From positions 1 to 44,157 of the IMG/VR virus record IMGVR_UViG_3300043602_000035: DNA of 44,157 nt; one strand, 5' to 3'. This document shows positions 9,954-31,697 of this stretch, in pieces. The stretch's first letter is position 1, and every line of letters starts with the position of its first letter. The notes beneath the pieces were generated by a model, which was not told where the DNA came from, did not search any database, and worked only from the letters and a program-made list of their open reading frames with translations. The DNA is from a virus. Both the position numbers and the translations under genes were made by a program.

Positions 9954-10165
9954 GCAGTATCCCGCATCAGCATGTCCTCGATCACCTCGACATCGACGCA
10001 GCGCCCGCCGTGCAGGAAGTGCCACAACGCCAGCGCATGAAAGTTGGTGAGGTCGCGGGCAATGACGAGGCCATCCAGCTTCTGCTGCAAGCCCCAGCTA
10101 TCGCCATCGCGGTAGATGATAAACATCGCCGGGTTGGCGCTCGGCGTCACGCCGCTGCTGTTCAC
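9950..10165 (-). CDS. Hypothetical protein of the packaging cluster (71 aa)
   Basis: GTG start at 10165, in a GTGA overlap with the preceding stop. The 71-residue product contains MFIIYRDGDSWGLQQKLDG and LALWHFLHGGRCVDVEVIED. It resembles the strand pattern of the following 55-residue protein, and both may be short beta-rich proteins. No family is recognised. Confidence 0.65.
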   Translation of the reverse strand: MNSSGVTPSANPAMFIIYRDGDSWGLQQKLDGLVIARDLTNFHALALWHFLHGGRCVDVEVIEDMLMRDTA

Positions 10166-10398
10166 TTCTTGCCCTCGATGATGTTGCGAATAGTGATGCG
10201 GATGTCGCCCTCGCCGTCAGCGCCGGTCACCGGGCTGGCCGGTCGTCCCCAGCCGCGCTCCCACAGCATGCCGATAGCGCGTAGCTTTGTCTCCTCATCG
10301 ACGCCCTTCTCGGCCTGGGCGATGCCCGCGACGATGCGGACGGTATTGGGCGTGTAGGCCCGGCACAAAGATCGTATATCGGCTGGTGCTTTAGCCAT
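10162..10398 (-). CDS. TerS-like candidate, small packaging protein (78 aa)
   Basis: ATG at 10398. The helical core, RAYTPNTVRIVAGIAQAEKG followed by TKLRAIGMLWERGWGRP, matches from memory the 'R-x-h-T...A..L..ILDRGWGRP' pattern of small phage proteins encoded just upstream of terL and often taken as small terminase or DNA-recognition subunits. At 78 residues it is short for TerS, which usually also carries an HTH and an oligomerisation core. No other gene in the packaging cluster is a better candidate. An alternative is that TerS is the HTH protein at 10675-10917. Confidence 0.55.
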   Translation of the reverse strand: MAKAPADIRSLCRAYTPNTVRIVAGIAQAEKGVDEETKLRAIGMLWERGWGRPASPVTGADGEGDIRITIRNIIEGKK

Positions 10399-10597
10399 TT
10401 AACTTGGGTGCCTCCCCCTTCTGCTCCAACGCCTCCACGCGCTCACGCAGCGCATCGAGCTGGCTTGTGACGCGGCCTATTGCGGCCAACAACTGGGCAT
10501 CTGACGCCGCCACGGCAGCCACCAGGGCGCTGTGGACATCAGCTCGCACGTCACGGTCGCCCTGGGCGATCACCGGAATGATTTTGCCGCCGCTCAT
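10391..10597 (-). CDS. Small coiled-coil protein (68 aa)
   Basis: ATG at 10597 is chosen because upstream in-frame sequence reads through a hairpin and looks non-coding. The C-terminal half is a heptad-like coiled coil (LLAAIGRVTSQLDALRERVEALEQK). The stop overlaps the next gene's start by 8 bases. It is probably an oligomeric accessory protein of the packaging cluster; no family is recognised. Confidence 0.6.
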   Translation of the reverse strand: MSGGKIIPVIAQGDRDVRADVHSALVAAVAASDAQLLAAIGRVTSQLDALRERVEALEQKGEAPKLNG

Positions 10598-10614
10598 GCC
10601 TGTCCCCAAAGAGA

Positions 10615-10651
10615 GAGGGCGCGACTGCCCTTGCGGACAATACGCGCCCTC
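10615..10651. other. Inverted repeat between HTH gene and packaging genes
   Basis: Nine-base arms GAGGGCGCG (10615-10623) and CGCGCCCTC (10643-10651) with a 19-base loop fill the 77-base gap between the HTH gene and the packaging cluster. There is no U-run, so intrinsic termination is not shown. The position would suit partial termination or mRNA processing ahead of the structural genes. Confidence 0.5.
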
Positions 10652-10674
10652 CCGGCCTGTCGTCCAGGCGCAGG

Positions 10675-10917
10675 CTAGTCCCGGCGTCCCTCCAGCGGAC
10701 TGATCCACTTAGGGATGAACGGCTTGATGCCGTACTGTATCAGCAGCCGCAGCAGGATGGCAGAGGGTGCCGGTATCCTGGCGGTGCCTTTGGCGTAGCG
10801 GTTGGCGGTGCGCTCACTCACGTCGAGGTAGCGCCCGGCTGCGGCCTGCGTCAGCCCCAGCTCCTTGATGGCATTTTTGAACTGGCGCGGTGTCATTACT
10901 CGGTCTTGCTGGCTCAT
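10675..10917 (-). CDS. XRE/Cro-like helix-turn-helix protein (80 aa)
   Basis: ATG at 10917 is preceded by GGAG. The 80-residue protein carries a textbook HTH at about residues 10-45, FKNAIKELGLTQAAAGRYL followed by DVSERTANRYAKGTARIPAP, then a hydrophobic helix AILLRLLIQYG. This is a DNA-binding regulator fold, seen in small transcription factors and also in some TerS proteins. Its place as the second gene behind the late promoter and just ahead of the packaging genes fits either a late-operon regulator or a DNA-recognition packaging factor. Confidence 0.8.
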   Translation of the reverse strand: MSQQDRVMTPRQFKNAIKELGLTQAAAGRYLDVSERTANRYAKGTARIPAPSAILLRLLIQYGIKPFIPKWISPLEGRRD

Positions 10918-23191: not shown

Positions 23192-23394
23192 CAGAGGAGG
23201 AAGCAAAGTTGCGCGGGCTTATGCAGCTCGACGCCAAGGTCTACCGCGCTCGCAACCAGATCGCGGAGAAGACGGACCCCTTATCTGAAAAGGGGCAACG
23301 GAACGCAGCCCGTGCGGCTGCGAAGAAGCAGGCCAAAGCTAAAGTTAAACCAAGCGAACCAACAGAGGAACCATCAAATGAGCCGACACCTTAG
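23188..23394 (+). CDS. Small charged protein (68 aa)
   Basis: ATG at 23188 overlaps the previous stop (ATGA). It is helical and charged in the first half (EEEAKLRGLMQLDAKVYRAR), then Lys/Ala-rich (AARAAAKKQAKAKVK), with a Pro/Glu/Ser end. It is likely disordered or nucleic-acid binding. The last 17 bases overlap the exported-protein gene. Function unknown. Confidence 0.65.
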   Translation: MTEEEAKLRGLMQLDAKVYRARNQIAEKTDPLSEKGQRNAARAAAKKQAKAKVKPSEPTEEPSNEPTP

Positions 23395-24172
23395 CACCGC
23401 CGTGGCGGTGCTGCTTGCTACGTTTGTGCTGGCGCTGCCAGCGCAGGCGGCCACCATCCGCGTTCTCGGTGGCCAAAACTTTGACATCGACCAAGGCACC
23501 GCCCTGACACTGGGTGGCGTCCCGGCAGGCACTCAGCAGACTAACGATAACCCGTGCGTGATCTGCGGCGTAACGCAGCCACAGCAAACCAATACGGTGC
23601 AGGGTTTTGGCTACACCGACTACAACAACAAGGGTTCGCTATCGACTGAGGCGTTCTTCTCGTCCGGTATTCTGCGCGACACCAACCTCAACGCAGACAC
23701 CATTTCGGTGACCAACTACAGCGGTCAGCAGATCATCAATCTGATCACTGCGCTGGGCGGCCAACAGGCGTTCAGCATCGGCATCGACATGAACCAAGCC
23801 ACCGGACAGGGCGCACAAGTGCTGGAGAGCTTCTTTTTCTTGGACGTGACGCCGGGACAGTTCTCGGTCGTTGCATCGTTCCTGCCAGCCTTGGCTGACA
23901 GCATTGCTCTGCCGTCTGTCAACAATGGCACGGGCTTCGCTGACTACCTGTTGAACGGCCTGACCACAGCCGGGCTTGATCCAACCCACCAGTATGCGTT
24001 CTACGCTCGCGTGACGAACGCAAACGACGGCCCCGACAGCTTCTACATCGTTCCTAGTGTGCAGGCGGTGCCGCTCCCGGCAGTCGGGTCTGGCTTCCCC
24101 ATGCTGATTGCTGGCCTGGGTGGCTTGATAGCGTTGAACCGGCGTCGTAAGGCGCGGCAGCTCGCGGCGTAA
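23378..24172 (+). CDS. Exported protein with VPLPA/PEP-CTERM-type sorting tail (264 aa)
   Basis: ATG at 23378 has AGAGG upstream and overlaps the preceding gene by 17 bases. Residues 1-24 are a clean Sec signal peptide (MSRHLSTAVAVLLATFVLAL, cleavage after PAQA). The mature region (25-230) is Gly/Asn/Thr-rich and beta-like, with one CxxC (60-63). The C-terminus is a tripartite sorting signal: VPLPA at 231-235, a hydrophobic helix at 238-253 (FPMLIAGLGGLIAL) and the basic tail NRRRKARQ. This matches the VPLPA/PEP-CTERM class that host exosortases process for surface display. It ends the rightward operon. Such a tail in a phage-encoded protein is very unusual; it may be a host-derived gene that alters the infected cell's surface. 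Confidence 0.8.
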   Translation: MSRHLSTAVAVLLATFVLALPAQAATIRVLGGQNFDIDQGTALTLGGVPAGTQQTNDNPCVICGVTQPQQTNTVQGFGYTDYNNKGSLSTEAFFSSGILRDTNLNADTISVTNYSGQQIINLITALGGQQAFSIGIDMNQATGQGAQVLESFFFLDVTPGQFSVVASFLPALADSIALPSVNNGTGFADYLLNGLTTAGLDPTHQYAFYARVTNANDGPDSFYIVPSVQAVPLPAVGSGFPMLIAGLGGLIALNRRRKARQLAA

Positions 24173-24176
24173 ACAA

Positions 24177-24278
24177 CTACGCCCGGCAGGGGAGGGCTTC
24201 CGCTGCCGGGCGCTTACTCTGGGACACAACGCTGACGCACTTCGTCTGCCCTTGCTCGTCCATCACAACGAAGCGCAC
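24177..24278 (-). CDS. Tentative 33-residue peptide at the end of the leftward operon
   Basis: GTG at 24278, stop at 24177-24179. The reading RFVVMDEQGQTKCVSVVSQS looks like real protein, but the last ten residues are encoded by the terminator hairpin and the ribosome site is weak. It may be a remnant or chance frame downstream of the 60-aa gene. Confidence 0.25.
   Translation of the reverse strand: MRFVVMDEQGQTKCVSVVSQSKRPAAEALPCRA
24180..24212. terminator. Strong hairpin between the convergent operons
   Basis: Ten-base perfect arms CGCCCGGCAG (24180-24189) and CTGCCGGGCG (24203-24212) around a 13-base loop lie eight bases after the stop of the exported-protein gene and downstream of the last leftward late gene. 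It is the best bidirectional terminator candidate, though the following bases (CTTACTCT) are only moderately U-rich. Confidence 0.65.
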
Positions 24279-26964: not shown

Positions 26965-28908
26965 CTAGTATCCAGCCGGGAGTGGTTGCTTCTTTTTAAC
27001 ACCGCCCTGGCTTGACGCGAGGCCTGCGCCGCCAGACAGAACACCTTGCGCGACAAGTGCTTCGACGATTGCCGCCCTGGCGCGCTTGTCAGGCTCTGAC
27101 GCCATGAGTTGCTGCGCCAAGATTTGCAGCCGGGCGGGATCGTTGGTCGCCATGATGCTGGCGATCTTGTCTCTGGTGGCGTCGGCGGTTTTCTCGCGCA
27201 GCGCGTTGAGGCCCCACTGTCCAGCCTGCTCGACGCGCCCCCATATGGTCTTGTCGCCGGGCAGCTTGCCGCTGCTTGCCTCTTGCGCCTTGGCGGCCTC
27301 CAGACGCGCCGCCGTCTGCGAGCCTTTGACAACGTCCTGATAGGTGTCGCGGAACTGGCGCTCGTTTCGGATCACCCGCTGGACGGCATCGGCCCGCTCC
27401 TGGCCAAACATCTGCACCAGCTTCTGGCTATTCCAATCGTGCGGCTTGCCCAGCGTCAGCTCCAGGGCGCGGAGGTCGTCGCCCTTGGTGCCAAGGATGC
27501 GGTCGATCTCGGCGCGGGCTGCTTGGCTCAGCCGGAATGTCTCGGCTGACGGCCCAACATTGGTGCCTTTCGGCTGCACCCCCTCGGTGATGGTGTTCTG
27601 ATAGTCGTAGGGCCGCATGACTTGTTGCTGGCCGGTGTCGAAGATCGAGCCGCCAGCACTGCTGCTGTCGGCAGCCCGGCGCTGCGTTCCCAGCTCGGCG
27701 TAGTGGCTGTCCAGCTCGCGGATGCCCGGCACCTTGGCTTGCAGCTCCCTGGTCAGCAGTTCGTCGATATGCTCAAGCTGCTCGCGGGTGGCGGGTGGCG
27801 TTGCCGGGTCGCGGATTTGATCTTTGATCGATGAGCGCACCGCATGGATGCGTACCGGGTGCGGGTCCAGCACACCTGGGTTGCCGGGTATCTCCAGCGC
27901 CTGCCGCACCGCTTGCACGGTTCGCAGCCGCTCGCCTGCAAGATTGCCGGTCCACTCGGTCAGCCGGTCTGCGATGCCCTGCGTGTCGATGGCGCGAGCG
28001 TTCTGCAACAGCGGTTGATACTCGGCACCACGCACCCGCATGTTCTGCGCGATGTCGGCATCGACCACACTCGGCTCGGCAGTGCGGCCAAGGTTGCGAT
28101 CCACCTCGCCAGTGATGGTCCTTGCGGAAGTATTGTTGCGGTCTGTGAGGTTCGTCACCAGTGCCGACTTGCCGGGGCCTGACGTGCCTGGAACGGACCC
28201 CTGCGCCGTGCCAAGCATTGACGGCCCGGTGTCGGGCAGCATGCCGCGTGGCCCCTTGCGGCCAAGCATCAGCTCCATCAGGCCAGCCCTGTCGGCGTCG
28301 GCGGCCTTCGACAGTTCAGCCGGGAATATCTGGTTGTGCGCCTTGCTGGCGACACCGCCAACGGCACCCGCCACGGGAGCTGCGGTGCCAAGGATGCTAC
28401 CCAGGCCAAAGCCGGTGACGGCAGGCTGGACGTAGTCGCCGGGCTTGTCGCTGTAGGTGTGGCCGGTGGCTTGTGCTGCGCCGTGCGCGCCGCCCTCCAG
28501 CGCGCCAATGCCCATGCGCTGCCACAGCGCCTTCCCGGCATTGACGGCAGCACCCGTCGCCATGCCGCCAGCCTTCGCCAGCGTCGAGCCGGTGGCGAGG
28601 CCGCCGACAGCGTCGGCGGTGCCTGCCAGGAACGGCCCCAGCCGCTCGCGGGCTGCTTGGCTCCTGGCGACCTTGTCCTGCAACGCCTCGGCGTAGGACG
28701 GTGCGCCGCCGGTCAGCACCTCGCCAACGGCTCGCGCCCGGTCCCATTGGCCGTAGGTGGCTGAGTTGCCGCCAACGCGCAGCATGTCGCTGGTTGTCTG
28801 CGGCACGGCACGAACGACATCCATCGCCGTGTCGCCCCAGGTTTTCTCTGGCGGCTTTTCCTCTTCCTTGGCGAGGTAGGCGTCTGGGTCGAATGGTTTG
28901 TCTACCAT
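26965..28908 (-). CDS. Internal virion (DNA-ejection) protein (647 aa)
   Basis: ATG at 28908 overlaps the upstream stop (TGATG). An acidic or charged head (residues 1-60) is followed by a Gly/Ala-rich hydrophobic region (about 85-195: GPFLAGTADAVGGLATGSTL, GFGLGSILGTAAPVAGAVGG) able to enter membranes. A long helical region (300-620) follows. This layout is typical of podovirus internal proteins ejected to form a channel across the envelope. Its neighbour is the M15-bearing internal protein. No enzyme motif is visible here. Confidence 0.7.
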   Translation of the reverse strand: MVDKPFDPDAYLAKEEEKPPEKTWGDTAMDVVRAVPQTTSDMLRVGGNSATYGQWDRARAVGEVLTGGAPSYAEALQDKVARSQAARERLGPFLAGTADAVGGLATGSTLAKAGGMATGAAVNAGKALWQRMGIGALEGGAHGAAQATGHTYSDKPGDYVQPAVTGFGLGSILGTAAPVAGAVGGVASKAHNQIFPAELSKAADADRAGLMELMLGRKGPRGMLPDTGPSMLGTAQGSVPGTSGPGKSALVTNLTDRNNTSARTITGEVDRNLGRTAEPSVVDADIAQNMRVRGAEYQPLLQNARAIDTQGIADRLTEWTGNLAGERLRTVQAVRQALEIPGNPGVLDPHPVRIHAVRSSIKDQIRDPATPPATREQLEHIDELLTRELQAKVPGIRELDSHYAELGTQRRAADSSSAGGSIFDTGQQQVMRPYDYQNTITEGVQPKGTNVGPSAETFRLSQAARAEIDRILGTKGDDLRALELTLGKPHDWNSQKLVQMFGQERADAVQRVIRNERQFRDTYQDVVKGSQTAARLEAAKAQEASSGKLPGDKTIWGRVEQAGQWGLNALREKTADATRDKIASIMATNDPARLQILAQQLMASEPDKRARAAIVEALVAQGVLSGGAGLASSQGGVKKKQPLPAGY

Positions 28909-31697
28909 CAGGGTATCCCCAGTTTTTTCCTAACCGCAGGAGCGCGAGGATCGCCGGGGTTCTCTCTGAGCCACTTGAGCGCACCGGCCTCCTCGGCGGC
29001 GGATGACTGCGCCTTCTGCTCGCCAACGAACTTGTCTGCAATCTTTCTGCCTGGGCCAAGCGTGTCGTACAGGGCGCGCTCGGCAACCTCGCGCCGCTGA
29101 TTTTTGATCTTGATCAAATCCTCGCCCTCGCCGGGCTGCGGGAAGTATCGCTTGATGTTGTCCTTGATCTCCTGCGGGCCAAGCACCGCACCGCTGTCGT
29201 CACGCAATACTGCGGCACCCCAAGCCTCTGCCTCGCTTGCCTGAATTTGATACTCGTTTGACACAACGTAGTTGCCGCCAAGCGGTATCTTGCCAAGGGC
29301 TGTGTCTTTGAACCCGGCCATTGCCGAAAAGTCGCCGTGCTTGTGGCTGGCTTGTCTTGCCCGCTCAAAATTCTTCAGCGCGCTGCTCTGCTTTTCGGTC
29401 AGGGAGATGTCGCCTAGTTCTGGGTCAGGCGTGGCGTTCTTCCAGCTTCCATCCGGCTGCCGTTCAAACAGCTTGCCAGCAATCGTGGTGTGTTCCTTCT
29501 GCTGGCCTTTGGTGATGCGCTGCTGCGCCTCCTGTATCTCCAGTTGCTTCTTCTGCCGGTCCATCTCGACGTAGCCGGGCGAGTTTTCCCGGCGCAGCCG
29601 GGCAAGGTTTTCCTCGGCAGTCTGCCGGTCAGCGGTGGCCTTGAGTATCTCGTCAGGCCGCATCCTGGCCTTGGCCTGCTGCTCCTCGATCTGGAGCCGC
29701 TGCACCCGCATCGCCAGCTCCTTCTCAGGCTCCTTGTACTGGCGCTCCAGGGCGCTCTTGTGCAAATCCCAGCGCCGGTCCTCCAGCTTGCGGCGGTCCT
29801 GCTCCAGCTCGGCGGCCTCCTTGGCGTAGATCGCCTTTTTGCTGTCGGGCAGGCGCGGATCGGCGGCGGCATTCCGCAGCGCCCGCTCGCGGGCCGTCAT
29901 CGGCTCGGTCTGGAACGGCGGCACGGGTGCCATTGGCGGCGGCTGTCCAGGGATAGGCTCCTCGGACGGCAGCGTGGCGGGAGCCTTCTCGATGCCGGTC
30001 TGCGGCTGCGGCCCAATCGGGATGGTCTTGACCGGGCGCGGGCTGAAGATCGTGCCGCTGTCCACGGTCGAGCTGCCGGGAGCCTGTGCCACTTGCACGT
30101 CGGGGCTGACGGGAGCCGGTGCCGGTTGATTGGCCATCGAGCCAGCGATGGCGTTGCGCCGGGCATCGACGCTTGCCGCAATACCGGCCCCTACAGGGCT
30201 GTCTGGGCCTGCATCGCTGGCCACCCCTGCCCTACCTAGCGAGGCAGTCGCGCCACGCAGCCCAGGGCGCTGCCCCGCACCCAGCACGTCCTGCAAAACG
30301 GCGTCTTGCTGATCGCCGCCGGGCGGTGCTGCCTGCGCCACCTGGGGCGGCTGCTCCTGCATCATCGGGCTGGGGCGTACTGCCAGCGTATTGACCGGCG
30401 GCCCTGCGGGAGGCGCAGGAGGCGGCGGTGCCGCCGCAGCCACGGCCTGCGGACGCTCCCCCATGCGGTGCGGCGCAGCTTCGCTGCGGAACCATTCCGG
30501 CGTCTGGCCCAGGCTGGTATAGGAGCGGTTTGGCCCCCAGGCGACCGGAGTGCCGCTGCGGAAATCGACATGGATGTTGTTGCCGCCATAGTTGCCCAGG
30601 CCGCCAGCGCCACGCATCCTGGCGTCGGCTATCAGCGCCCGGCGCTGGTCCGCAGGAACGCCAGACACGTCCATGTCCACGGCCAGCCGCCGCATGTGTT
30701 CGCTGTTGGTTGCGCCACCCACTGCCGCGTTTACGGAGGGGCTGCGGTAGCCTGACGTGAACTTGACGCCGGGATAGGCCTTGCTGACCTCGGCCACATA
30801 CTGCTGCACCTTGGGGTCGAGGTTCTCGACGCCACGCGGCACCGCCGTGGGCTTCAGGTACGCGCCAATGCTGCGGTCCTTCATGTTCTGCGGGCCGCCT
30901 ACCGTGATCTTCAGCGGCGCGTCTGTCAGCGCCCCCTGGCCTGCCGGTGGCTGGAAGGCTGCCGTGGTTGGCGGCACACTCTCCATCGGCGGCTGCGGTC
31001 GATCCGCCTCGCGCTGCGGCGACATCATCAGCGCATTGGTGATGGCCTCGCGCACCGGCTGCACTTGCTGCACTGGCGGGGGCCGCTGCTCCTGCGCCTG
31101 GGAGGCGGCTATCAGCGCCGCTTTGGCTTCCGGCGACAGCTCGGAACTGATCGTGGAGCGTGGCGGTGCCTCGGACGAGGTGACGCCGGGTGCCGGGAGG
31201 TCTGGAGCTGCCGCCACCTCTGGCTGGTCGCCGTCGCCACCGACATCCGGTGCCGCCACAGCCACCGGAGCTGGCGCGGGTTCTGGCGCTGCCGCTACGG
31301 GTGCTGGTGGCGGTGCCGCTGACACTGGCGACAGCGTGGACGGCACGGCAGGATCGCTGCCTGGAATGGGCGGTCGAGCGCCGGTATCTCCAGGCACAGT
31401 ATTTCGCCGCGCCGCTGGCGGCGGCTCGGCAGTGATGGGCGCGACCGGCGTGACCGGCGGCAGATTGCGGTCGTAGCCCTGGGAGTAGCCCTGGCTCCTC
31501 GCCTCCTCCTGGCGTAGCCGCCAATCGAGGCCAGCTTCGCCAATGCTCTCGCCAAGGTACGTCAGGCCCTCGCCTAGTGTTTTGGGAAAGCCCTTCTTCT
31601 GCGCCGCCAACGCAGCAGCAATGGCACGGCGGCGTTGCAGCGCCTCGTAGGTTGGAATGTCTGGCGTACCAAAGATAAAGCTGTCGGTTTCAGCCAT
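28908..31697 (-). CDS. Large internal virion protein with M15-type peptidoglycan peptidase (929 aa)
   Basis: ATG at 31697. Residues about 80-290 are Pro/Ala-rich. Residues 293-390 are an M15 (D-Ala-D-Ala type) peptidase domain: FTSGYRSPSVNAAVGG, then SEHMRRLAVDMD giving His334 and Asp341, and NNIHVDFR giving His376 as zinc ligands. A second Pro-rich tract (410-640), a coiled coil (640-760) and a helical C-terminal domain follow. It would cut peptidoglycan during DNA entry. As I find no separate endolysin, it may also serve lysis. Three zinc ligands in the right order make the domain call firm. Confidence 0.85.
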   Translation of the reverse strand: MAETDSFIFGTPDIPTYEALQRRRAIAAALAAQKKGFPKTLGEGLTYLGESIGEAGLDWRLRQEEARSQGYSQGYDRNLPPVTPVAPITAEPPPAARRNTVPGDTGARPPIPGSDPAVPSTLSPVSAAPPPAPVAAAPEPAPAPVAVAAPDVGGDGDQPEVAAAPDLPAPGVTSSEAPPRSTISSELSPEAKAALIAASQAQEQRPPPVQQVQPVREAITNALMMSPQREADRPQPPMESVPPTTAAFQPPAGQGALTDAPLKITVGGPQNMKDRSIGAYLKPTAVPRGVENLDPKVQQYVAEVSKAYPGVKFTSGYRSPSVNAAVGGATNSEHMRRLAVDMDVSGVPADQRRALIADARMRGAGGLGNYGGNNIHVDFRSGTPVAWGPNRSYTSLGQTPEWFRSEAAPHRMGERPQAVAAAAPPPPAPPAGPPVNTLAVRPSPMMQEQPPQVAQAAPPGGDQQDAVLQDVLGAGQRPGLRGATASLGRAGVASDAGPDSPVGAGIAASVDARRNAIAGSMANQPAPAPVSPDVQVAQAPGSSTVDSGTIFSPRPVKTIPIGPQPQTGIEKAPATLPSEEPIPGQPPPMAPVPPFQTEPMTARERALRNAAADPRLPDSKKAIYAKEAAELEQDRRKLEDRRWDLHKSALERQYKEPEKELAMRVQRLQIEEQQAKARMRPDEILKATADRQTAEENLARLRRENSPGYVEMDRQKKQLEIQEAQQRITKGQQKEHTTIAGKLFERQPDGSWKNATPDPELGDISLTEKQSSALKNFERARQASHKHGDFSAMAGFKDTALGKIPLGGNYVVSNEYQIQASEAEAWGAAVLRDDSGAVLGPQEIKDNIKRYFPQPGEGEDLIKIKNQRREVAERALYDTLGPGRKIADKFVGEQKAQSSAAEEAGALKWLRENPGDPRAPAVRKKLGIP

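Follow-up and report, generated by a model that had tools for sequence, protein, structure and literature searches.

Why would a soil phage carry a gene for a protein that ends like an exosortase substrate, a type of protein familiar from bacterial surfaces and biofilm matrices? The question is raised by the window, i.e. the whole stretch of 44,157 nucleotides that was analysed (IMG/VR record IMGVR_UViG_3300043602_000035), in which one ORF encodes an exported protein of 264 aa, here called P0001 (Table 1). The first-pass annotation had described a signal peptide at residues 1-24 and a VPLPA-type C terminus, and both were found in the translation. The N terminus (MSRHLSTAVAVLLATFVLALPAQA) is signal-peptide-like by inspection and by a hydropathy rule, with cleavage predicted after AQA at residue 24, while at the C terminus VPLPA occupies residues 231-235 and is followed by a hydrophobic span and by RRRK within the NRRRKARQ end.

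Table 1. Features of the P0001 locus in the window.
Feature	Position	Strand	Basis
Small ORF, 68 aa, 17-base overlap with the start of the P0001 gene	23188..23394	+	ORF list
CDS, exported PEP-CTERM-like protein P0001	23378..24172	+	translation; viral homologues; purifying selection
Sec-type signal peptide, residues 1-24	23378..23449	+	sequence; similar N terminus in nearly all relatives
Ectodomain, residues ~25-230, with PCxICG and NDGPDSF motifs; exchanged module	23450..24067	+	AlphaFold2; invariant columns; comparison with L032
VPLPA-type sorting tail, residues 231-258: VPLPAVGSGFPMLIAGLGGLIALNRRRK	24068..24151	+	TIGR03370 match; C-terminal segment 83% identical in L032
GC-rich stable hairpin past the stop codon	24180..24213	+	fold; kept in L032

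The P0001 gene is the final gene of a rightward series and leftward genes come next. Together with its overlap with the small ORF, with which it probably forms one operon, this agrees with the earlier description of the last gene of a rightward operon, and the accessory position in the phage was supported as well. That the gene is closed by its own terminator was confirmed in part: a very stable hairpin (-31.6 kcal/mol, z -4.3) follows the gene, but it has no U-run and was absent from the calls of an intrinsic terminator scan. The hairpin may be a terminator or an RNA-stability element.

The window is a tailed-phage genome with portal, terminase, structural and replication genes. IMG/VR contains errors, and some singletons from our tail-pattern scans may be host fragments, but it is hardly credible that the contigs are misclassified bacterial DNA, as terminase, portal and capsid genes also lie near, and abut, the family genes of other contigs. 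For the window and for a lineage in which the family gene adjoins the terminase gene, this explanation is contradicted by the phage core genes. The window terminase is closest to those of Rhizobium phage RHph_I3_18 and Bradyrhizobium phage ppBjS10J-1, and the portal is closest to that of Rhizobium phage RHph_I3_18. Shinella, a related genus, was reported to be without PEP-CTERM proteins (PMC9012009), and the actual host may therefore lie elsewhere among the alphaproteobacteria, not necessarily within the Rhizobiaceae. The window also encodes a large virion-type protein at 28908-31697 (-), the middle of which resembles an M15/VanY-like peptidase as judged from the sequence alone (SGYRSPSVNAAVGGATNSEH...).

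Tails were called with a rule-based detector that combines the motif, the hydrophobic span and the basic end. With this detector P0001 alone among the 49 window ORFs had a tail, and a tail arose in 66 of 20,000 shuffles of its last 45 residues and in 1 of 20,000 shuffles of the whole protein; a chance origin was thus ruled out by the shuffle tests. Residues 231-258 matched the NCBIfam model TIGR03370 (VPLPA-CTERM) with 20.0 bits (E=5e-4), below the curated cut-off of 25.35, and P0001 is therefore termed VPLPA-CTERM-like and not a formal member. Strictly read, the class assignment of the first-pass annotation thus lacks an HMM match at cut-off in P0001 itself, but it holds for relatives, which exceed the curated cut-offs of the VPLPA-CTERM, PEP-CTERM and PEPxxWA-CTERM models. 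TIGR03370 gave 27.6 bits for L033. The cut-off of TIGR02595 (16 bits) was passed by P0002 (17.9 bits), L015, L061 and L080 (24 bits), and that of NF035944 (35 bits) by L061 and L080 (41.5 bits). The commonest tail of the family, the VPGP flavour (VPGPIVGAGLPGL), by itself matched none of the NCBIfam sorting models (L046). The same dominant flavour is also C-terminal on L177:3445-4161 (+), a curated cistern family (NF033947) PEP-CTERM protein on a virus contig that scored 131 bits against a cut-off of 60.

Using P0001 as a single-sequence query we found 4 IMG/VR contigs, and alignment-based scans extended the family to 185 and then to at least 218 contigs. The family is undescribed until now. 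It had no relatives among 50,697 named phages or 72,556 plasmids; the tailed proteins of the second family likewise had none in named phages, and a 40-aa VPGP tail, too short a query to carry weight, gave no match in the plasmids. Among the first 80 family members examined, 79 had an intact tripartite tail, whereas among the roughly 1,575 other ORFs of those loci it was seen in 6, all of them second proteins with a signal peptide. The sole exception was L009, whose family gene near 10001-10801 (+) has the ectodomain of L008 and an altered C terminus after VPLPAVG, probably by a frameshift. A signal-peptide-like N terminus was common to nearly all members by sequence and hydropathy rule, and V231, P232 and P234 were nearly invariant in the alignment columns.

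The ectodomain is predicted to be a beta-sandwich. The AlphaFold2 model of P0001 (mean pLDDT 86.2) consists of a beta-rich domain and one predicted C-terminal helix at residues 239-263. No significant Foldseek match was found in PDB or BFVD, and a jelly-roll likeness in these searches was weak and was discounted as evidence. P0001 had no Pfam match and no PHROG match at E <= 0.1, and its ectodomain matched no Pfam, PHROG or NCBIfam family. The family is under purifying selection, with a median dN/dS of 0.21 for the ectodomain and 0.31 for the tail.

Three unrelated portal types were found among the family carriers, the window portal being the third type. At about 20 loci the family gene adjoins the terminase large-subunit gene, mostly directly 3' of it and in eight of them overlapping it by 4 bases; in many phages of this terminase-adjacent lineage a protease/capsid gene comes next, and other lineages have other portals. 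Because of the unrelated portals and the terminase adjacency, we conclude that the gene is phage-borne and has moved among unrelated phages. Alternatively, it could be a captured host gene, i.e. a passive moron or a transduced PEP-CTERM protein with a host-type biofilm role and no benefit during infection. The accessory position fits such a capture, as does the presence of some second proteins in the cellular PEP-CTERM families FxDxF and cistern. We nevertheless regard it as improbable given the purifying selection, the unrelated portals and the terminase adjacency in one lineage. Moreover, all contigs in which we found this ectodomain family are viral, and two scans of 85,000 species genomes with few patterns, which do not prove absence, gave no relative. 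At about nine loci the gene immediately 3' of the family gene encodes a small conserved exported protein of ~94 aa of the 'NKATGEKLGTA' type, a possible partner (e.g. L014:2339-2620 (+), L047:3470-3805 (+) and L004:7159-7419 (+)).

Tail and ectodomain behave as separate units, the tail being retained or swapped independently of the ectodomain. On a tree of 110 ectodomains the seven tail flavours require 17 changes, where the minimum is 6, and on well-supported branches alone at least 9, 6 and 5 changes are required for three of the flavours. L002 has the ectodomain nearest to that of the window, yet its tail differs. In L061, AVPGPTVGA is fused to VPEPATWAMM, so that a VPGP remnant precedes a PEPxxWA tail, which is likely a scar of a tail swap. 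The reverse, and the clearest case, was seen in the sister phage L032, which matches 13 window ORFs. Its flanks are ~73-80% identical to the window at the nucleotide level, whereas the ectodomains share ~42% protein and ~45-50% nucleotide identity. The C-terminal protein segment is 83% identical, and window positions 23996-24276, which span NDGPDSF, the tail and the hairpin, are 86% identical in nucleotides. Between these two phages the ectodomain has thus been exchanged, with flanks and tail conserved. An alternative to host matching for this conserved tail is that related phages simply recombined at the NDGPDSF segment, which is itself conserved. Taken together, the relatives that pass curated cut-offs and the exchange of tails independently of the ectodomain uphold the earlier proposal of a phage-borne sorting tail of the PEP-CTERM class.

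From two pattern scans (VPGP and PEPxxWA tails) and the loci of the family search we collected at least 200 distinct tailed proteins. The tail was C-terminal in all of them, at least 177 had a signal peptide, and they fell into at least 78 ectodomain groups, of which at least three besides the main family hold both flavours. At 26 loci two or more tailed proteins were present. The paired proteins of one locus have unrelated ectodomains, and they had the same flavour in 26 of 30 pairs, compared to a mean of 11.9 pairs after shuffling (none of 5,000 shuffles reached 26); the family search, which was blind to the tail, had supplied nine of these loci, and the others were selected by tail pattern and some are possibly host fragments. 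The four mismatched pairs (L003, L010, L033 and L187) are VPxP variants that were split by the flavour rule. One flavour across unrelated ectodomains of one contig argues for matching to the host, short of proof. Beside the family gene, L003:9221-9757 (-) and L010:11065-11613 (-) encode P0005, an unrelated exported VPLPA-tailed protein on the opposite strand.

No exosortase was encoded in ~148 virus records including the window, and the phage would therefore depend on the host enzyme. PEP-CTERM proteins are believed to undergo cleavage at the motif before they are sent outward (PMC1569441), and to retain exopolysaccharide on the cell (PMC12188702 and works cited therein). The tail class, the tail exchange and the lack of a phage exosortase point to use of the host exosortase, and we consider it likely that the P0001 gene supplies a phage-made substrate for this enzyme that decorates the infected cell. 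The Sec export step and the anatomy of the tail follow directly from the sequence, in which the signal peptide would route P0001 through the host Sec machinery and the hydrophobic span and basic cluster would arrest the protein at the inner membrane, its beta-sandwich pointing outward. The host exosortase would then recognise and cut the VPLPA-type motif, and the ectodomain would be passed to the outer surface or the exopolysaccharide matrix. There the displayed ectodomain could change the binding properties of the infected cell or of its surroundings, most plausibly by shielding receptors from further phages or by binding matrix sugars; the tail would stay matched to the host enzyme as the ectodomain diversified. 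As to the surface role of P0001, receptor shielding or superinfection exclusion is a guess that we put forward tentatively, and a change of the matrix is likewise a guess.

The tail might instead be a mere membrane anchor, with the protein acting at the periplasmic face of the inner membrane independently of an exosortase, where it might set the time of lysis or keep the DNA of superinfecting phages out, to name two examples. A hydrophobic span and a basic end would suffice for this, the predicted single helix would fit, and several of the phages have lysis genes close by, for endolysin and small membrane proteins. However, a plain anchor needs no VPxP motif, three positions of which are nearly invariant, and the exchange of whole flavours and the flavour match of unrelated proteins within one phage would be left unexplained. 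We therefore find an anchor, including these example roles, unlikely compared to a substrate of the host exosortase.

Compared to the known VPLPA-CTERM and PEP-CTERM exosortase substrates (TIGR03370, TIGR02595, NF035944; Haft et al. 2006, PMC1569441), the phage family shares the signal peptide, the VPxP-type motif, a hydrophobic span of ~14 residues and the basic C-terminal end. It differs in that it is encoded without an exosortase, one ectodomain family carries several flavours and P0001 scores below cut-off. LPXTG and GlyGly-CTERM proteins follow the same three-part C-terminal logic with a dedicated membrane enzyme, but with another motif and unrelated enzymes (sortase, rhombosortase). Of the cellular families, FxDxF (NF038126) has a near-member in the phage contig protein P0004 (E=4e-11, below cut-off) and cistern has L177 as a member; the P0001 ectodomain matches neither. 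Like the phage surface-modifying morons and superinfection-exclusion proteins, the family is accessory, exported and placed at an operon end or between core modules. Known examples of this kind are lipoproteins, membrane proteins or glycan-modifying enzymes, and in a literature search we found none described with an exosortase tag. The literature found on PEP-CTERM and phages concerned bacterial proteins only, apart from hot-spring viruses, in which TIGR03118-family genes were acquired by transfer (PMC11003980).

The recombined tags and outer domains indicate that these phages probably rely on a host sorting enzyme to decorate the cells they infect. A large family under selection, with tails exchanged and yet one flavour per phage, would show viral use of the exosortase route. 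Counting the beta-sandwich, FxDxF, cistern and thioester-like ectodomains, we see about an even chance that phages of soil bacteria, probably alphaproteobacteria, possess a modular, recombining surface display in which unrelated ectodomains with a host-suited exosortase tag coat the host cell and the flavour records the exosortase type of the host. If this is true, tail flavour could predict the hosts of uncultured soil phages, and the family would give a testable handle on the role of exosortase-displayed proteins in phage-host contact.

Two further tailed proteins were observed. L191:1201-1893 (+) has a PEP-CTERM-like tail and a weak match to TQXA (thioester adhesin; E=4e-4, below cut-off), and is possibly a covalently binding surface protein. 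L004:7422-7967 (+) encodes an FxDxF-family protein with a shortened VPGP tail, without hydrophobic span or basic end, and may be a secreted or decayed form.
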